Source: an uncultured Gimesia sp.
Lineage (GTDB): Bacteria; Planctomycetota; Planctomycetia; Planctomycetales; Planctomycetaceae
Assembly: GCF_937910335.1 (NCBI RefSeq)
Contig: NZ_CALEMX010000470.1
Span: 1-32,320, forward strand
Direction: 5' to 3'
DNA: 32,320 bases
In this document: in pieces, positions 9,700-19,927 of the stretch
How the letters are laid out: each line of letters opens with the position of its first letter
Numbering within the stretch: position 1 is the first letter of the stretch
Position numbers and translations under genes: made by a program
The notes under the pieces: generated by a model
The model's input: the letters and a program-made list of their open reading frames with translations, nothing else
What the model was told of the DNA's origin: nothing
Database searches by the model: none

Positions 9700-11127
9700 T
9701 CAGGCCAGCATTTTCGTGACGAGGTGTGCTTCTTCCACACCGGTTAAGCGGAAATCGAGTCCCTGGTAAAAATAGGAAAGTTCGCGGTGATCAATTCCTA
9801 AAAGATGGAGTACAGTCGCATGAAAATCGCGGACATGGATTGTATCTTCCACTGTGTAGTATCCTAACTCATCAGTTTCTCCTATTGTGACGCCCGGTTT
9901 CGAACCACCGCCTGCGACCCACATTGAGAAAGCATCGATGTGATGATCGCGACCAATCAGATCTCGGGGTTCTCCCTGAGGTGTACGCCCAAATTCGCCT
10001 CCCCAGATTACCAGTGTATCATCTAAAAGGCCGCGCTGTTTCAAATCTTTGACGAGTGCTGCACAAGCCTGATCTGTTTCCAGACAGCGCGCATCCAACG
10101 CGTCAGCCAAATCGGTTCCTTTATTACCATGATGGTCCCAATCAGTATGGTACAATTGAACAAAGCGTGAACCTTTTTCAATTAACCTACGTGCTAGCAG
10201 GCAATTACGGCCAAATGAGGGCTTCGCTGGATCAACGCCGTAGAGATCAAGGGTCTGTTTGGTTTCTCCCGAAAGATCCATCAATTCCGGCGCGCTGGAC
10301 TGCATGCGGTATGCCATTTCATAAGCGGAGATCCTCGTTGAGATTTCAGGATCTCTCGTTTTCTCCAGTCGAAGGCCATTCAGTTGGTTGACCGTAGTAA
10401 TAAAATCTGACTGTCTTTTTGAGTCAATGCCTTTGGGGCTCGATAAATTCAAGATCGGATCAGCGCCGTTTAGAAAAGGGACTCCCTGATAGGTGGTTGG
10501 TAAAAACCCGCTGCCCCACAAAGGTGCTCCGCCGCGAGGTCCGCGGGGTCCTGACTGCAGGACTACAAAGCCAGGCAAATTTTGTGATTCGCTGCCGATG
10601 CCATAAGTAATCCAGGAACCCATACTGGGACGCCCAAACTGCTGCGTGCCTGTATTCATAAACAGCTTGGCTGGTCCATGATTGAATACATCCGTTTTCA
10701 TACTCTTTAAAATGGTAATGTCATCCACGACGGTTGCCAGGTGCGGTAAGGCATCCGAAATTTGTATGCCCGATTTCCCGTACTTTTTGAATTTCCGACG
10801 TGTCCCCAGCAATTTGGCATCTTTTTTCAGAAACGCAAACTGCTTGCCTTTAACATAGGACTCTGGGATGACGTTGCCTTCCAGTTCCTGCAGTTTTGGT
10901 TTGAAGTCAAACATCTCCAGTTGACTTGGCCCACCGGCCATGAAGAGATAGATGACGTTTTTTGCTTTGGGAGGATGGTGGGTTTTCCCCAGTGCAGAAG
11001 GGCTTGCTTGCGCCTGTTTTTCAGACTGCATCAAAGTCGCAAGTCCAATCGCACCTGCGCCGATGCCACAAGTTTCAAAAAAGTGGCGTCGAGTCTGATC
11101 CCGTAACATTAAGTCGTCGAAACTCAT
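9700..11127 (-). CDS. DUF1501 family exported protein (Tat signal)
   Basis: This 475-residue protein has a twin-arginine type leader (RRHFF followed by CGIGAGAIGLATLMQ), so it is likely exported folded. The body carries DUF1501 features, which relate it to the alkaline phosphatase/sulfatase fold: FMAGGPSQLEMFDFKPKL, then RPSMGSWITYGIGSE and WGGEFGRTP followed by GRDHH near the C-terminus. The biochemical role of DUF1501 proteins is not established. In planctomycetes they are abundant and regularly encoded beside cytochrome-c/DUF1549/DUF1553 proteins, exactly as here. The ribosome site AGGGAG precedes the ATG by 7 bases. The gene lies 50 bases downstream of the DUF1553 gene and is probably cotranscribed with it. 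Confidence 0.92.
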   Translation of the reverse strand: MSFDDLMLRDQTRRHFFETCGIGAGAIGLATLMQSEKQAQASPSALGKTHHPPKAKNVIYLFMAGGPSQLEMFDFKPKLQELEGNVIPESYVKGKQFAFLKKDAKLLGTRRKFKKYGKSGIQISDALPHLATVVDDITILKSMKTDVFNHGPAKLFMNTGTQQFGRPSMGSWITYGIGSESQNLPGFVVLQSGPRGPRGGAPLWGSGFLPTTYQGVPFLNGADPILNLSSPKGIDSKRQSDFITTVNQLNGLRLEKTRDPEISTRISAYEMAYRMQSSAPELMDLSGETKQTLDLYGVDPAKPSFGRNCLLARRLIEKGSRFVQLYHTDWDHHGNKGTDLADALDARCLETDQACAALVKDLKQRGLLDDTLVIWGGEFGRTPQGEPRDLIGRDHHIDAFSMWVAGGGSKPGVTIGETDELGYYTVEDTIHVRDFHATVLHLLGIDHRELSYFYQGLDFRLTGVEEAHLVTKMLA

Positions 11128-11177
11128 CCGATTCTCCCTGGGTGATCAATCGATTATCACCCACATTGAGGAATTTG

Positions 11178-14100
11178 TTATTCGCGTGTGATAAATTCAT
11201 CCAGGTTCATTAAAACGCGTGCCACTGCCGTCCAACTGGCGGCTTCGGTAGCTGTGACTTTTTCCGGTAACTGTTGAGAAGCAAACTGTTCGGCTTCCTT
11301 TGGTGATTTTTTAAAATGTGCTCTCTGTTGTGCCAGATATCTCGTTAATACATCCAGTTCATGATCGGCGGGGGTTCTGGACAAACAGATTTGAAAAGCG
11401 TGCCTCACGCGACCTTCGTCATAATCGGGTCCTTCCTGCAGAATACGTACTGCGAGTCCCTGAATCAATTCGAATAAGGATTGATCATTGGCTAGCGTCA
11501 GAGCCTGCAAAGGAGTATTTGAGCGGACGCGACGGGTACAGGTGGTATTGCTGTTGGGCGCATCGAATGTTGGTAACATCGGATAAGGTCTTGAGCGCCA
11601 GAAGTAAGTATACATGCCGCGACGGAAACGATTTTCGCCTTGCTCTTCAGGCCAGCTCTTTTTGTTCTGAGTTAAGACATAGATGCCTTCCGGCTGCGGT
11701 GGATAGACACTGGGGCCTCCAATTTTCCGTGTTAACAAACCACTACTGGCAAGAAACAGATCTCGAATCGATTCGGCTTCGATCCGATAGCGGTTCTGTC
11801 GGGAAAGGAGCAGGTTGCGAGGATCCTGTGCCTGATTTGATGGGTTAAAGTCAGATGACTGACGATAAGCGGCGGATGTCACAATCAGTCGATGCAGTTT
11901 TTTTACATCCCAGTTCAGATTCATAAATTCAGCAGCCAGCCAGTCCAGGAGCTCGGGATTAGAAGGTGCTGTTCCCTGCGTTCCAAAATCGTTTTCGGTT
12001 TCTACAATGCCTTTACCGAAGAAGCGTTGCCAATATCGATTTACTGTGACGCGCGCCGTCAATGGCTGCTGCTTACTGATAAGCCAGTTTGCAAAGTCCA
12101 GGCGTGTGGGTGATTTCACAGTGGAAGGCATCGGTGGTAATATATCGGGAACACCGGGGCTCACTCGTGCGCCGGGTGCCAGAAAATTGCCGCGAAGCAG
12201 AATAAAAGTTTCGCGTGGCTTGGGAAGCTCCTTCATGACCATGGTTGTCACGATCTTCTTATTCAATTTGTTGAGTTCTGCGTTATGCTTTGTCAATTGC
12301 TGATTTTGATCTGACCATTGCACGTCTGATTTATGAAACGCCAGTTCTACCGTCGTTTTTTGTTTTGCATCCCATTTCTCTTCGGGCTGTTTCAGAATGG
12401 CATAAATTGCAGGATCTACATTTAACACACTGGGGTTCACAGTAGTCGCTGACAGGCGAAAACGACCTACATTGTATTTCGAATCGCGTGTCTGCTTGAG
12501 TGTGACCCGTAATTTCATAGGTACGGCAGACTTCAATGGCGCTTTTAATTTGATGATGGCACGACGATTGACATTCATTTCCCCTGTCTTCACGTTAATC
12601 GCCCAACCGGTTTTGAGGTCACCGTCGACAAGATTACTGGCCGGAAATTTCTGCTGCGAATGATCGGCAGTGGCTTCCGCCAGATTCACCGGTTTGAACT
12701 TCGACCAATCCGCTTTTGCCTGCTCTGCTACTTCGACGGTCAGTTCATCCAGTACAAAATTCCCATTGCCGGCCCAACCTGGGCCCATTTTGGGAAGGCT
12801 TGCATGGGTGAGCACTTCCAGACGCAGTCCCGTCGTTCCTGAAGGGATATTCGCGGTTTCGACGATGTAGGTATCGTTATTGGGAATCTTGCCTCCCACT
12901 AAGAGAGAATGATCTTTCTGAACCGTAATCGTCGCTCCATTGACCGATTTTGCCTGTTGCGTCTGTAGTATCGACCACTGTTTCTCCGATTTTTTCAACC
13001 TTTTCTGAATAGTCTCTTTCCACGCTTTGAATTGAGGTTCCAATATTTTTTGGCGTTCTGCCAGTTGTTTCTTCAATTCTGTGAGCTCTTTCTTGAAACC
13101 TGTGAGCTTCGTTTCCTGTGAGGTGGTTGGCAGTGACAATGTGGGGGGCGCGCTATTAATATCAGCAGTACTATTGAAGATCGCATAGAGTTGATAGAAG
13201 TCCCGCTGCGTTAAGGGATCGTATTTATGTTGATGACATTGCGCACACCCTACAGTCAGACCAAGGAACGCAGCGCCGGTCGTATTGACTCGATCCACGA
13301 CTGCTTCCACACGGAATTGTTCCGGATTGGTTCCCCCTTCCTGATTGATGAGGGTATTCCGATGAAAGCCTGTGGCAATTAACTGGTCTGTTGTCGGTTT
13401 CGGCAGCAAGTCTCCCGCCAGCTGTTCTTTCACAAATTGATCGAAGGGCATGTTTTGATTAATGGCCTGAATTACCCAGTCACGATATTTCCAGATTGAA
13501 CGTGGACCATCAATGGTAAAGCCATTCGAGTCGGCATACCGGGCGACATCCAGCCAATGTCGCGCCCAGCGTTCTCCATAATGGGGAGAGGCCATGAGTC
13601 GATCAACCAACCGCTCATACGCGTCGGGTCGTTTGTCGGCGAGAAATTTTTGAACTTCATCGACAGAGGGAGGCAGACCCGTTAAGTCCAGGCTCAGGCG
13701 ACGAATCAGAGTGTTGCGATCCGCTTCTGCTGATGGTTTTAATTTCTTCTGTTCCAGATGACTTAAGATAAAGGCATCGACGGGATTACTGATCCATTTT
13801 TGTTGTTTTACTTTTGGAAGTTGAGGCTGCCGAATCGGTTGAAATGCCCAGTGGTCTGAAGTTTTCTGAACCACTTTCAATGTTTTTTCTGAATCCGGGA
13901 TCTTGGCTCCCTGATCGATCCACTGCTGTATGATTGAAATTTCTGTTTTATTCAAGGGAGTCAGCTCATGGGGCATGCGGGGAATTTTACCTTGTCCCGA
14001 CAGACTCAGAAAGAGAAGACTTTCCGCACTCTTACCGGGAATCACCGCCGGTCCCCGGTCTCCCCCTTTGAGAATATTGGCTCCATGATCGAGGCGCAAT

Positions 14101-14270
14101 CCTGATTCTTCCCCCTCCTGCGAGTGACAGTCATAACAGTGCTGCTTTAACAAAGGGCGAATCTGTTTTTCAAAATCGATGACCGATTTCTTCTCGGCTG
14201 CAATCCCAGACTGCACCATCATTAGCATAGTAATGGCGAGGGTTGTGACTCGTCTAAACAAATTCCGCAT
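11178..14270 (-). CDS. Secreted PSD1-type cytochrome c / DUF1549 / DUF1553 protein
   Basis: This is a 1030-residue exported protein with a signal peptide at about 1-25. A planctomycete cytochrome-c domain follows with haem motif CYDCH at 45-49 and a later Met-rich GKIPRMPHE segment. A DUF1549 domain begins near 155 (NPVDAFILSHLE, then LIRRLSLDLTGLPPS) and includes a second CxxCH, CAQCH, in the stretch before KYDPLTQRDFYQLY. The middle holds a coiled-coil-like segment and a beta-rich, carbohydrate-binding-like insert (about 440-640). The DUF1553 domain occupies the C-terminal third (VNRYWQRFFGKGIVETENDFG, then RRVRSNTPLQALTLAND). Such proteins are thought to act in periplasmic redox or polysaccharide degradation, but no reaction is proven. 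It is the first gene of a pair with the DUF1501 gene. Confidence 0.92.
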   Translation of the reverse strand: MRNLFRRVTTLAITMLMMVQSGIAAEKKSVIDFEKQIRPLLKQHCYDCHSQEGEESGLRLDHGANILKGGDRGPAVIPGKSAESLLFLSLSGQGKIPRMPHELTPLNKTEISIIQQWIDQGAKIPDSEKTLKVVQKTSDHWAFQPIRQPQLPKVKQQKWISNPVDAFILSHLEQKKLKPSAEADRNTLIRRLSLDLTGLPPSVDEVQKFLADKRPDAYERLVDRLMASPHYGERWARHWLDVARYADSNGFTIDGPRSIWKYRDWVIQAINQNMPFDQFVKEQLAGDLLPKPTTDQLIATGFHRNTLINQEGGTNPEQFRVEAVVDRVNTTGAAFLGLTVGCAQCHQHKYDPLTQRDFYQLYAIFNSTADINSAPPTLSLPTTSQETKLTGFKKELTELKKQLAERQKILEPQFKAWKETIQKRLKKSEKQWSILQTQQAKSVNGATITVQKDHSLLVGGKIPNNDTYIVETANIPSGTTGLRLEVLTHASLPKMGPGWAGNGNFVLDELTVEVAEQAKADWSKFKPVNLAEATADHSQQKFPASNLVDGDLKTGWAINVKTGEMNVNRRAIIKLKAPLKSAVPMKLRVTLKQTRDSKYNVGRFRLSATTVNPSVLNVDPAIYAILKQPEEKWDAKQKTTVELAFHKSDVQWSDQNQQLTKHNAELNKLNKKIVTTMVMKELPKPRETFILLRGNFLAPGARVSPGVPDILPPMPSTVKSPTRLDFANWLISKQQPLTARVTVNRYWQRFFGKGIVETENDFGTQGTAPSNPELLDWLAAEFMNLNWDVKKLHRLIVTSAAYRQSSDFNPSNQAQDPRNLLLSRQNRYRIEAESIRDLFLASSGLLTRKIGGPSVYPPQPEGIYVLTQNKKSWPEEQGENRFRRGMYTYFWRSRPYPMLPTFDAPNSNTTCTRRVRSNTPLQALTLANDQSLFELIQGLAVRILQEGPDYDEGRVRHAFQICLSRTPADHELDVLTRYLAQQRAHFKKSPKEAEQFASQQLPEKVTATEAASWTAVARVLMNLDEFITRE

Positions 14271-14513: not shown

Positions 14514-15383
14514 TTACTCGCCTTCAATCCGTAAGGCAGAAATCTGGACCTGGTCTTTGGTGGTCAGAAAGCTCAAGAAACATTCTCGGCCCGACTGCAG
14601 CGCAGGCTGAGTGCATGTTAGAACGCGACGTCCGCCGACACTGATGACAAATCGGTTTCCCGTACCGACAAATCGAATGCTGACCGACGAGGGACCGGTT
14701 GTATTCAGATCCAATTTGACCTGTTTCAGCGATTTGCTTACACCCTGCTTTACGGCAAAGACACTGAGCGTATTGTTCTGGAATATGATCGCACTGGCGA
14801 TGAGCACTTTTTGGGGATTCGCCGGATCTCTGGTAAGTAAATGTAATTCAAACGAGGGGAGGTTCTCTTTCACATCGACGCGAAAACTAACGCTGATTTT
14901 TTTATATGGCCTTACAAAAGTCGCCGTTGAGATCTGTCCGGCTGTCGAAACCATTCCTGCTTCTGTGAACTGCCAACCTTTGCTTTTCCAGAACAGGTTG
15001 TAAAACGGGTTTTGCCAACTGGTGGAATTGAGTTCGCCTTCTTCGACCATTTTCACGTCTGGCAACAACGGCTGTCGATTCGCCGTTTGTGTGAGAACCA
15101 GTTCCGGATCCGGTGTGATGGGATCCAAGATCGGAGTGGGCTTCTCTTTGGACGAACCTGATTCATCATGTGGTGTCTTTGCTTTGCCCGATGGTGGTTC
15201 TGAAATGGATTTCTGACCTGCAGTCTGTCGGGATAACGCTTCGCGGTGCGGACGATCTGACTCCATGCTTTGAATTTTATAAATCAACAGAGTGGAGACG
15301 ATCAACAAAATCACAGCCAAGAGGACGCCGGGGCTAATGCGTTTGGCTCTTCGAAGACTCTGTTCCGGTTCCTCTGGCATCAT
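14514..15383 (-). CDS. Membrane-anchored beta-rich protein, unknown function
   Basis: This 289-residue protein has a short basic cytoplasmic N-terminus, one transmembrane helix at about 18-36 (SPGVLLAVILLIVSTLLIY), a Ser/Pro/Lys-rich low-complexity stretch (about 45-105), and a C-terminal domain (about 115-289) of alternating hydrophobic strands such as ISVSFRVDV, SFELHLLTRD and SVSIRFVGTGNRFVISVGG. The last resembles the concanavalin-like/LamG sandwich often seen in planctomycete extracellular proteins, but I cannot name a specific family. Its ATG abuts the TAA of the upstream methyltransferase gene with no gap, so the two are probably translationally coupled. Two consecutive Met codons leave the start uncertain by one residue. 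Confidence 0.75.
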   Translation of the reverse strand: MMPEEPEQSLRRAKRISPGVLLAVILLIVSTLLIYKIQSMESDRPHREALSRQTAGQKSISEPPSGKAKTPHDESGSSKEKPTPILDPITPDPELVLTQTANRQPLLPDVKMVEEGELNSTSWQNPFYNLFWKSKGWQFTEAGMVSTAGQISTATFVRPYKKISVSFRVDVKENLPSFELHLLTRDPANPQKVLIASAIIFQNNTLSVFAVKQGVSKSLKQVKLDLNTTGPSSVSIRFVGTGNRFVISVGGRRVLTCTQPALQSGRECFLSFLTTKDQVQISALRIEGE

Positions 15384-16676
15384 TTAATCTGTCCCCTTTT
15401 TTCTTGCCAGCTTACACAGTTCCTGAAAATGTTTTCCTAAAGCGCGTTCCAGATAAAATGACTGAATTCCAAACTGATTTTTCAACGACTCATATTGGCG
15501 TAGTGTAATTTGCAATTCTTCTGAATTCCATTCCGATGGTCGTTTGACCGCTTTGATCAATAGATTTTTGGGAGTATGCTCTGTATCGATAAATTCTACA
15601 ACCTGAGTTCGATATCCGCAAATTTCCAGAACTTGTGCCCGCAATGCATCTGTGACCAGCGCGGCTGTTTTTTCTTTCAGGATGCCATGTTGCAGTAATC
15701 CAGTCAGAGGTTCGCTGGAGATTTGCTGAAAGATTTCATGTTGGCAGCAAGGGACTGCCATGATGACGGAAGCGCCAGCCTGTATGGCTGAGGCAATGGC
15801 GGCATCGGTGGCTGTATCGCAGGCATGTAGCGAGATGGACAGATCGCATTTGCTGGAACCGGAATCGAACTGTGAAATATCTCCTGTTTTGAAGGATAGT
15901 CCTTTGCATTGCAGCCGATCTGCGATGCATTGACAATCTGCAACAACAGATTCCTTCAGATCGAGTCCTATAATATTTACGTCGCGTTTCCATATTTCGG
16001 TAAATAAATAATGAATTGCAAATGTGAGATAACTTTTTCCGCAACCAAAATCGAAAATTCCGAGTTCTCCGCGCGCTGGCAAGCCAGTTACGATATCGTT
16101 GATGAATTCCAGATAACGATTAATTTGCCGAAACTTGCGGTATTGAGCTGCTTTCACTTTACCGGCTGGTGTCATCACACCAATGGCTTCCAAAAAAGCA
16201 CAGGGGGATCCTTCTGGAATAAGATACTGTTTGACCCGATCATGCGATTCAACCAGCGGGGAGTTTGATTTGGTTGGCGGTTGTTTTTTCAGACGCACCG
16301 TTCCCTGATTTGTCTTTTGAAAATGATAGTCCGCTTGCTGCGTATAGAGATAGCCTTCCCGAAAATGATTGGACCAGAGTTTTGTCATTCGTTCAATTGT
16401 TTCGGAGTGAGTGAGATTTTCATGAACTTCCTGCTGTTCCCGAGTGAGCGCCAACTGGTAATGTGGCTTGCCCTTGATGATTACAGGCCGCAATGTGACC
16501 TTTTGCCCGACTGACGATTTTTTATCGACGGGTTTGCTTAGCACCACCTGAATACAGGCCCCTGCATTGAGCGTCTGCACGACTTCGGTCGGTAATGTGA
16601 ATTCAAGATGTGATTGTTGATGTTTCGTCAAAGGGAATTTGATCCTGTGCGTTATGTTGAATATTTCTGTTACCAA
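15384..16676 (-). CDS. SAM-dependent methyltransferase (Methyltransf_32-like)
   Basis: The protein is up to 430 residues. An N-terminal region (about 1-180) is without recognised motifs. A Rossmann methyltransferase domain follows, with motif I GIFDFGCGKSYLTFA at 206-220, an acidic strand end IIGLDLKE at 235-242, ISLHACDTATD near 281-291, and a VPCCQHE motif at 308-314. The HACD and PCCQH motifs are typical of the Methyltransf_32 group related to METTL25/GSTCD; the substrate is unknown. The reading frame begins at a TTG at 16676, which overlaps the upstream prepilin-peptidase-like gene by 74 bases. A TTG at 16634 is another option, and no ATG exists in the first 96 codons, so the start is uncertain. 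It sits between the peptidase-like gene and the membrane-anchored protein. Confidence 0.85.
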   Translation of the reverse strand: MVTEIFNITHRIKFPLTKHQQSHLEFTLPTEVVQTLNAGACIQVVLSKPVDKKSSVGQKVTLRPVIIKGKPHYQLALTREQQEVHENLTHSETIERMTKLWSNHFREGYLYTQQADYHFQKTNQGTVRLKKQPPTKSNSPLVESHDRVKQYLIPEGSPCAFLEAIGVMTPAGKVKAAQYRKFRQINRYLEFINDIVTGLPARGELGIFDFGCGKSYLTFAIHYLFTEIWKRDVNIIGLDLKESVVADCQCIADRLQCKGLSFKTGDISQFDSGSSKCDLSISLHACDTATDAAIASAIQAGASVIMAVPCCQHEIFQQISSEPLTGLLQHGILKEKTAALVTDALRAQVLEICGYRTQVVEFIDTEHTPKNLLIKAVKRPSEWNSEELQITLRQYESLKNQFGIQSFYLERALGKHFQELCKLARKKGTD

Positions 16677-17763
16677 GAATGTATTGCGCTACGCCTGCCA
16701 GCAGGGGAATAGCGATAATCTGTCCTCCTGTCAGCATGAGATACAAGGGGTATCCGAGGTCACCGGGTAGTATCGTCAGATATTTTCCCAGTAACATTTG
16801 CAATGCTAAAACGGCAGCAAGAAAAGCGGAGGCAGGAAGTGTCAGACTTTCTGAATTTCGTTTCCTGACGACAATCACAAAACATGCCAAGCAGAGTGCT
16901 GCGAGAAAACAGACGCTGATGACCTGCTGCCAACCCAGATAGAGGCCGATCAATATTAACAGAGAAGTTGTCCCCGGCTGAATCAGTGTGCCTGGTTTTT
17001 GTGTTTGAAACAGTACAGGCCAACTAAACAGAATGCCGGCAATGGCTCCGTAAAAAAGCCCCCAGCCCATTGTGATCAGAGTTTGTACTTCAAGACCTAA
17101 ATGCAGCGAACCATGATAGCGAGTTTCACTTAATATGTTGTCGCTGGAGAGGACAGTAGAGGAAACAGCATCAACTGGAATCAACGCTGGCACAGGATGT
17201 AGTTCTGGAAGGAAAACACCGGCGATGATGCCTGCCATAAAGCACCAGATCAGCAGACGGCGCGGGATGAGCTGACGATCAAACTGAATATAAGCAGCAG
17301 CCAAAACGACAATAAATAAGTAACTGTAATAGAGATCCAGGGCGATCAGATCCCAGGTCCGCCCTTCCATAATTTGATAAACGCCCGAAAATCTGTTGGG
17401 ATCGCGATAGGGCAAAAACTGACCACCGGAACGTACCAGCGTCAGATACAACATTACAAAAAAAATGCCGACGATGGCTTCTACTATCGGATAACGCATG
17501 GAAATGGAAGACTGACAGTACCGGCATTTTCCCCTCAGTAATATCCAGGCAAAAATCGGAAGATTATCGCGGGTCCGAATGGGGGTTTCACATACGGGAC
17601 AACGGGACTTGGGTTTGGAGATATTCAACCCTAAGGGCATGCGGTAAATGACTACGTTTAAAAAACTACCAATCACTGATCCCATCACGAAGCACCAGGC
17701 TGCAGTGAACACCTCCAAAACCCACAAGTTAATACTTGTAGAATGAACTAACATCAGTTGCAT
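16603..17763 (-). CDS. Prepilin peptidase-like membrane protein (second catalytic Asp apparently lost)
   Basis: This is a 386-residue polytopic protein of the A24 type IV prepilin peptidase family. The N-terminal methylase-like domain is intact: GSFLNVVIYRMP at 32-43 and the zinc pairs CPVC (C55, C58) and CRYC (C80, C83). The first catalytic aspartate is present in FDRQLIP (D162). The second, normally in GxGDxK some 14 residues before LGWQ, seems absent. The stretch GTTSLLILIGLYLGWQ (264-279) aligns residue for residue with the family's GD.K...LG..LGWQ pattern but has Thr265 for Asp and Ser267 for Lys. It may be a non-proteolytic or methylase-only paralogue, or use another acid. It heads a leftward cluster with the methyltransferase gene. 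The ribosome site is not obvious. Confidence 0.85.
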   Translation of the reverse strand: MQLMLVHSTSINLWVLEVFTAAWCFVMGSVIGSFLNVVIYRMPLGLNISKPKSRCPVCETPIRTRDNLPIFAWILLRGKCRYCQSSISMRYPIVEAIVGIFFVMLYLTLVRSGGQFLPYRDPNRFSGVYQIMEGRTWDLIALDLYYSYLFIVVLAAAYIQFDRQLIPRRLLIWCFMAGIIAGVFLPELHPVPALIPVDAVSSTVLSSDNILSETRYHGSLHLGLEVQTLITMGWGLFYGAIAGILFSWPVLFQTQKPGTLIQPGTTSLLILIGLYLGWQQVISVCFLAALCLACFVIVVRKRNSESLTLPASAFLAAVLALQMLLGKYLTILPGDLGYPLYLMLTGGQIIAIPLLAGVAQYILGNRNIQHNAQDQIPFDETSTITS

Positions 17764-18421: not shown

Positions 18422-19927
18422 ATGAATTCAAGGATGACTGCCCACCTTTGGATTAGATGTTCAACATTAATCGTTTTTTCAACTGTGATCCAAGTTGCCT
18501 GTGATGTACAGGGAGATCCGGGTCCCAAACTGCTGGTGCCGGCATTAGACAGTCAACCTGTCAAAATAAAACAGGTACAAACCTCATCAGAGGAATTGCC
18601 TCTGGTTGCTCGCAAACCAAATTTGAGTATCGAGGCACGCAAACCAGATCTGGTAGCGGAAGAGGCCACAGATAATAAAACGAACAAAAAGTCCATGTCC
18701 GAGCCAAAACCATTTCGGGGCATTGCTAAAAAATCGACATCCACACCTAAAAAACCCACGGTTCCTGAAATACCCAAAATCGTTGATCCTCTGGACAAAC
18801 TGGTGGATGAAGCGATTGAGGTCTCTCATCGCAGAATGCTTTCCACCGAGGTACATACTCCGTGGCAGATTGCACATGGGATACTGGCTCTTCGATGGGA
18901 ATACACACTTTATCAGAACAACAAACGAGTCAGAGCCATCGACTGGGTCTCTACCGGACCTAACTTTCGAAATCGTCCCTGGTTTATCACCACTGATCAT
19001 GGTGGTAAAGGTCATCCCTTTACTGAACCCTATGCATTTGAAGGGCACCCAAATCAGTTTCTGGCCTTCTACGCGATGGCTGGTCTGCCTCTTGATCATA
19101 AATTCAAGGCAGGATCTAAAACCATCACGATTGCCAGCATGATTCGCAATGCCAAAGCAGAAGTGAATACCGATGAAGAAATCACCTGGACGCTGTGGGC
19201 ATTTTCCCGTTATCTGCCCTGGGATACAGAATGGGTCAGCAACAAGGGCGAACAATGGAACATGGAAACTCTGGTTCGCGTGCAGATGCAATCAGAACCT
19301 ACCAAGTCGGCCTGCGGAGGCACGCATGGGTTGTTTGCGTTAGCCAGCTCGGTCAATAATTATGCCAAAGACCAAAAACAGTTAAGAGGCACCTGGCTGG
19401 AAGCGAGTATGCGAGTGCGTCAATATATTGAGTATGCACGATCCATGCAAAACCAGGACGGTTCATTTTCCGCTAATTATTTTGAAGGTCCTGAATACGC
19501 GAGTGACGTGAATAAACAGGTTTCTACAACCGGCCATACTCTAGAATTCATTATTGAAGGCCTGCCGCAAAATCGACTGAATGAACCGTGGGTTAGAAGT
19601 GCTGTCTCTCGGATTGCCAGGGATCTGGTTGACTATAAAAAGCAGCCTCTTGAACCGGGGGGCATGTATCATGCTATTGACTCGCTTATGATTTATCGTG
19701 AACGTACTCGACCGCAGTATGCCAGGCAACTGGAACTGCTGGCAAAGCAAAAGGTCTTTGAGCAGCCTGCCGCTTCAGCACCGATTATTGGTTATTCAGA
19801 GCAATTTCTTCAGCAGCAGAAAAACGCCGCACAATCAAAATACCAATCACGATATCAACAGAACAACAAACCTGACAATCCGCCTACGCGACAGGCTCGT
19901 CGCCGCCGATTTTCGCGGTTTCGATAA
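18422..19927 (+). CDS. Exported alpha-toroid-like protein, unknown function
   Basis: This 501-residue protein has a hydrophobic N-terminal leader (about 8-27) ending in VIQVACDVQ, so it is likely exported and possibly lipidated at C27, although the -3 residue is not typical of a lipobox. A Lys/Pro-rich linker follows to about 125. The rest is helical, with His/Gly-rich segments: TPWQIAHGILALRWE, GHPNQFLAFYAMAGLP, ACGGTHGLFALASS, and the QW-repeat-like QNQDGSFSANYFEG near 343-356, then TTGHTLEFIIEGL. These spaced helices and the QxxDGSF repeat recall the terpenoid-cyclase/alpha-toroid fold, but no catalytic DxDD or zinc triad is evident. The C-terminus is Gln/Arg-rich and basic. No operon partner is near. 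A convergent gene ends 17 bp away. Confidence 0.8.
   Translation: MNSRMTAHLWIRCSTLIVFSTVIQVACDVQGDPGPKLLVPALDSQPVKIKQVQTSSEELPLVARKPNLSIEARKPDLVAEEATDNKTNKKSMSEPKPFRGIAKKSTSTPKKPTVPEIPKIVDPLDKLVDEAIEVSHRRMLSTEVHTPWQIAHGILALRWEYTLYQNNKRVRAIDWVSTGPNFRNRPWFITTDHGGKGHPFTEPYAFEGHPNQFLAFYAMAGLPLDHKFKAGSKTITIASMIRNAKAEVNTDEEITWTLWAFSRYLPWDTEWVSNKGEQWNMETLVRVQMQSEPTKSACGGTHGLFALASSVNNYAKDQKQLRGTWLEASMRVRQYIEYARSMQNQDGSFSANYFEGPEYASDVNKQVSTTGHTLEFIIEGLPQNRLNEPWVRSAVSRIARDLVDYKKQPLEPGGMYHAIDSLMIYRERTRPQYARQLELLAKQKVFEQPAASAPIIGYSEQFLQQQKNAAQSKYQSRYQQNNKPDNPPTRQARRRRFSRFR

Follow-up and report, generated by a model that had tools for sequence, protein, structure and literature searches.

What does a prepilin peptidase homologue do once the residues that make it a peptidase are gone? 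The question is raised by P0001, a gene on the minus strand of a Gimesia contig (positions 16603 to 17763 of the window, by which we mean the whole stretch of 32,320 nucleotides that was analysed). It forms an open frame of 386 residues plus a stop codon, has orthologues in 15 of 17 genomes of the genus and appears from comparison with its relatives to be a protease-dead A24 paralogue. Residues 26-108 (positions 17440 to 17688, minus strand) match A24_N_bact (PF06750), the part tied to methylation in PilD, with 112.8 bits and E 8.1e-33 against a Pfam cut-off of 23, and a profile search of the whole genome places P0001 as the best PF06750 match, at 117.1 bits. Pfam reported no Peptidase_A24 (PF01478) in P0001, and the genome profile search gave a stretch of 15 bits there, below the cut-off of 26.5. 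The four zinc cysteines listed in the preliminary description, C55, C58, C80 and C83, are indeed present, arranged as C-x2-C-x21-C-x2-C with G78-K79 ahead of the third (positions 17515 to 17601, minus strand).

It had also been claimed that the second catalytic aspartate is absent, GTTS standing in place of GD.K before LGWQ, and that the first is retained as D162. The former claim stood and the latter did not. A profile-profile alignment between 37 rows of the P0001 family and a varied set of 20 active A24 proteins (259 columns, probability 100%, E 8.3e-59) assigns T265 to the column of the second catalytic Asp and gives that of the first to Q160 rather than to D162; the invariant columns of the active alignment include I134-D135, P142, G303 and D306. 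The second site is thus G264-T265-T266-S267 (positions 16963 to 16974, minus strand), with LGWQ at 276-279, and the first is Q160-F161-D162 (positions 17278 to 17286, minus strand). Column counts give the same assignment at both sites, as does PilD numbering at the first. In what we take to be the sequence of P. aeruginosa PilD, D149 is the Asp of 'LID' and D213 that of GYGD, while D151 comes two positions after D149. A study of PilD places its cysteines at 72, 75, 97 and 100 (PMC3584216), which matches that sequence. For a PilD with a four-residue duplication between the two sites, D149 and D217 are named as the peptidase residues in a second study (PMC13170266), in agreement with D213 as the second catalytic Asp. 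D162 of P0001 therefore occupies the position of D151, two residues C-terminal to the catalytic D of 'ID', and in 112 active A24 rows its column varies among D, E, K, Y, F, G, R and S. The preliminary description had named D335 (in LPGDLG) as a possible substitute; within the genus its column varies among D, E, H and Q, which rules it out. P0001 thus lacks both catalytic aspartates and, judged on the features tested, is by its sequence no prepilin peptidase. The evidence favours the earlier suggestion of a non-proteolytic paralogue with a retained methylase-side domain, and does so more strongly than was proposed, since neither aspartate is left.

The gene is conserved within its genus. The nearest named relative locus, in Gimesia sp. 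SAT87, is 63% identical, and the orthologues in 15 of the 17 Gimesia genomes cover most or all of the length and have no internal stops. Of the two exceptions, one (G015) has a 37-residue fragment and the other (G006) no match; both genomes are <77% complete. Against four genus relatives, with dS >1 in three of the four, dN/dS is 0.10-0.17 for P0001 and 0.05-0.10 for its N-domain, and identity to 13 genus relatives averages 82% over residues 26-110, 80% over 111-160 and 55-59% over 161-386. Purifying selection acts on the gene, and most strongly on its N-domain. An AlphaFold2 model of P0001 is helical and confident (pLDDT 88.1, pTM 0.87); helix 137-161 ends beside Q160-D162 and helix 264-276 starts at T265. 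Both altered sites would therefore lie at helix ends, as expected if the peptidase scaffold were retained. Searches for solved A24 structures, by phmmer with P0001 and with a profile of 70 relatives, gave only weak unrelated matches. Structure comparison of the model returned none at E 0.001 with Foldseek and none above Z 5.9 with VIA-align. We draw no conclusion from the lack of a solved A24 match.

P0001 belongs to a family that extends across several planctomycete families. Column counts were taken from one alignment of 184 rows, comprising 112 active A24 rows (59 named loci and 53 from the window's family) and 72 protease-dead rows (15 from Gimesia, 44 from other genomes or paralogues and 13 named loci). 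Of the 80 named loci, classed on their motifs and by visual inspection, 59 counted as active and 13 as protease-dead, and 8 were set aside. Excluded from the alignment were two duplicates (L090, L095), three loci with no full frame (L107, L132, L148), three too diverged (L119, L120, L169) and three cut short (L047, L272, L310). Both catalytic columns are Asp in 112/112 active rows, the sorting having partly used catalytic motifs; among the protease-dead rows Asp occurs in the first column in 5/72, one of them the paralogue of genome G018, in the second in 4/72 and in both in 0/72. The four cysteines are found in 72/72 protease-dead rows, G78 in 71/72 and K or R at 79 in 68/72. A quick tree, with many weak forks, puts the protease-dead rows on one side of a branch with an SH-aLRT of 99, the exceptions being L208 and L227, active loci in wrong frames that form long branches among the protease-dead rows. 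For the classing of main active peptidases described below, the frames of L208, L222 and L227 were picked again by BLAST. The simplest reading of these relationships would be a single origin of the protease-dead family. Two A24_N-bearing proteins from MAGs of Acidimicrobiaceae/Acidimicrobiales, L120 and L169, are also without the GD motif and may represent a separate protease-dead branch outside the planctomycetes.

An intact prepilin peptidase elsewhere in the genome, which the preliminary description had called for, is not hard to find: four other A24 proteins of this genome (G000) have both aspartates. Two of the four are short, CpaA-like and carry GDVK (C386, C288). The third, a 366-residue active frame (C569), has the four cysteines, and its orthologues keep the quartet in 15/15 Gimesia genomes. 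The fourth, a 433-residue active frame (G000:C442), has no zinc cysteines, and the quartet is absent from all 14 genus orthologues found. The gene for this peptidase is surrounded by shikimate genes, with one for a glutamine amidotransferase next to it; the order is identical in the two genomes compared (L086, which is G000:C442, and L088 in G001), and no pilus operon is present there. G000 has 52 N_methyl and 59 DUF1559 profile matches, counted as stretches rather than genes, and so many candidate substrates. An extra protease-dead paralogue in genome G003 (L081:7176-8393) adjoins a gene for a DUF1559 protein with an N_methyl leader, itself a candidate substrate.

According to the PilD study, pilin methylation requires zinc and leader cleavage does not, and methylation is aided by a glycine and a basic residue adjacent to the third Cys (PMC3584216). 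We think it reasonably probable that P0001, as a protease-dead member of the A24 group, retains the half of a PilD-type peptidase that is a zinc-dependent N-methyltransferase, and is thus a candidate methylase acting in trans. Both Asp columns are lost in P0001, with the four Cys and the Gly-basic pair kept under purifying selection. The same genome pairs P0001 with a zinc-less active peptidase, a pairing that recurs in other genera. We propose that the zinc-less peptidase would cut the leader of pilins and DUF1559 pilin-like proteins, that P0001 would then methylate the new N-terminus in trans with SAM, and that the two jobs of PilD would thereby be divided between two membrane proteins.

Since PilD needs zinc for methylation and not for cleavage, an active peptidase could drop its zinc site where a methylating paralogue exists, and we compared the two features across genomes. 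The main active peptidase could be classed in 56 of 61 genomes of the window's family; those of G027, G052 and G107 were truncated at contig ends, and only the shorter active type was found in G030 and G032. A genome was scored as having no paralogue if it had no P0001 match at E 1e-5. The cysteine quartet is lost in 10 genera (G000, G018, G023, G029, G034, G036, G037, G038, G060 and G111), all of which have a Cys-bearing paralogue without one or both aspartates; for G111 the loss was known before its paralogue was searched for. Where the quartet is kept (n=45), a paralogue is present in 14 and none in 31 (Fisher p 6.7e-5). The Fisher tables omit genome G003, being of the same genus as G000, and their kept class, in the strict form used, includes the damaged motifs of G021, G039 and G057 as well as G045, whose four Cys are all present at a spacing shorter by one residue. 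A narrower table, with one weakly supported paralogue clade set aside, gave p 3.2e-6 and is not relied on. From other families, 30 of the 38 genomes G061-G098 were examined; 16 of these yielded the active enzyme and 14 were left unclassed. Here the quartet is lost in five (G069, G078, G090, G093, G096), each with a paralogue, and kept in 11, six of them with a paralogue (p 0.12 alone). These six include a short cut frame in G074 and very diverged sequences in G077 and G095; counting them as present works against a division of labour. Taken together, loss is seen in 15 genera of four families, 15/15 with a paralogue, as against 20/56 where the quartet is kept (Fisher p 3.6e-6, in tests that ignore kinship among genomes).

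In a tree of the active peptidases built without the N-domain, from which G019 and G024 were left out on account of broken frames, zinc loss amounts to 8 changes (7-8 in bootstrap trees), and the well-supported branches force only 3 changes. An independent-pairs test on this tree was underpowered and cannot reach significance. Further genomes added, among the matches listed, one strict loss, in G114, of the same genus as G023; G142, where only the shorter type was found, and G147, where the main enzyme was cut, were unclassed. Genera with damaged zinc motifs also have the paralogue in the genomes looked at, except G173 (90% complete), in which the motif is damaged and a search for the paralogue found none. 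In the shorter, C569-like active type the zinc motif is missing or damaged in several genomes, whatever else is present: G030 and G032 (78% and 88% complete) have such a type and no P0001 match at E 1e-5, and in G104 it occurs though the main enzyme is intact.

From these patterns we put forward, tentatively and with a slight lean towards doubt, that planctomycetes may have divided the bifunctional peptidase repeatedly, methylation in trans falling to an old protease-dead duplicate and the active partner losing its zinc site many times. Several observations weigh against both the methylase reading of P0001 and this wider proposal. The 366-residue active peptidase with four Cys, kept throughout Gimesia, might methylate too. 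The Fisher tests are blind to kinship, only three changes are forced, and outside the window's family p is 0.12. The missing or damaged zinc motif in the short type of G030 and G032, and the damaged one in G173, come without a paralogue found. Finally, the G018 paralogue has an Asp in the first catalytic column, and the strong conservation of D162 (69/72) falls outside this account.

The paralogue might instead be a non-enzymatic prepilin-binding protein (a chaperone, adaptor or regulator) that uses its fold and its zinc domain to bind leaders or pilins. The 20 genomes that have the paralogue beside a zinc-bearing main peptidase favour such a binder, since a second methylase would be needless there, and they indicate that the paralogue is not only a substitute. 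Much of the conservation also looks structural; E95, for example, is kept in 53/53 active rows of the window's family, Cys-less ones included. However, a binder leaves unaccounted for the retention of the methylation determinants, the Gly-basic pair and the four Cys, and the finding that all 15 genera with zinc loss in the active enzyme have a paralogue. We regard a purely binding role as unlikely, albeit deserving of serious attention.

The gene neighbourhood offers another candidate for the catalyst. P0001 is followed on the minus strand by a class I methyltransferase gene (PF13679, Methyltransf_32; positions 15384 to 16676). Its longest frame, which begins at a TTG, extends over the last part of P0001, though the true start may lie further in. 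Right after the methyltransferase stop begins a gene for a 289-residue protein (positions 14514 to 15383, minus strand), the third of an apparent operon. Two other genus genomes show the same gene order, and the protein matches no Pfam family above cut-off. In Gimesia the overlapping methyltransferase could catalyse, and P0001 would anchor it in the membrane or bind the substrate. The genes are overlapping neighbours in 14/15 genus loci, a contig end interrupting the remaining one, and both are conserved at about 62-94% identity within the genus, so the link to the downstream methyltransferase made in the preliminary description stands for Gimesia. It does not extend further: none of the 18 non-orthologous loci compared showed the methyltransferase next to the paralogue, and their genes differ, yet the motifs of the paralogue are the same there. 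The coupling is a genus feature and does not explain the family, and we judge such a partnership decidedly improbable. The same 18 loci also led us to reject gene neighbourhood as a guide to the family in general.

Other genes around the paralogues are recorded here for completeness. Upstream of P0001 lies a gene for a 501-residue protein (positions 18422 to 19927, plus strand), found in the same place in two other genus genomes and without a Pfam or NCBIfam family above cut-off. A DUF1501 gene beside a PSCyt1-PSCyt2-PSD1 gene, typical planctomycete families, occupies positions 9700 to 14270 of the window (minus strand). Elsewhere, protease-dead paralogues at L072:1651-3051, L080:6613-8534 and L082:2198-4082 are near CobW-type GTPase genes (two by Pfam, the third by similarity), and at two of these three loci a thioredoxin or MerC gene adjoins the paralogue. 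These CobW neighbours suggest a possible link of the paralogues to metal supply.

That P0001 is still a protease, working through other acidic residues such as D138, D162 or E95, seems hardly credible to us. D162 is Asp in 69/72 protease-dead rows and position 138 is D or E in 56/72. However, D162 is the neighbour of a catalytic position and is acidic in most active enzymes too, and the second catalytic column is never taken by another acidic residue replacing Asp. E95 is kept in 72/72 protease-dead and 112/112 active rows alike, so it is no replacement; being shared with the Cys-less active enzymes, it is no marker of methylation either. A sequencing error or decaying pseudogene, for which the missing motif alone speaks, can be dismissed, as all 15 genus orthologues have Thr at the 265 column, which we inspected as earlier suggested, and none has GD, with no internal stops and a dN/dS of 0.10-0.17.

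Should P0001 prove to be a methylase, cleavage and methylation would be shown to be separable onto different proteins. The PilD paper describes the role of pilin N-methylation as unknown (PMC3584216), and a natural pair of a methylase-only and a peptidase-only protein would allow methylation to be removed with cleavage untouched. Naming would also be corrected, as proteins with the N-domain only are easily called prepilin peptidases. A literature search that covered few subscription journals found no report of a methylase-only A24 protein.

How does P0001 compare with the A24 systems already known? PilD/GspO (PF06750 and PF01478), a bifunctional peptidase/N-methyltransferase that presumably corresponds to MEROPS A24A, has in common with P0001 the zinc-cysteine N-domain, the Gly-basic pair and the RYP..E motif, and active A24 proteins can be aligned with the P0001 family over the 259 columns given above. 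P0001 differs from PilD/GspO in lacking both catalytic aspartates and in having no PF01478 match above cut-off. CpaA/TadV are A24 relatives with one job, peptidases without a methylase domain. The PilD study describes the four-Cys domain as absent from FlaK (PMC3584216). Being peptidase-only, CpaA/TadV and the archaeal FlaK-type enzymes are the opposite case to P0001. The 433-residue A24 paralogue in the genome of P0001 itself is its mirror image, with the aspartates kept and the zinc cysteines lost.
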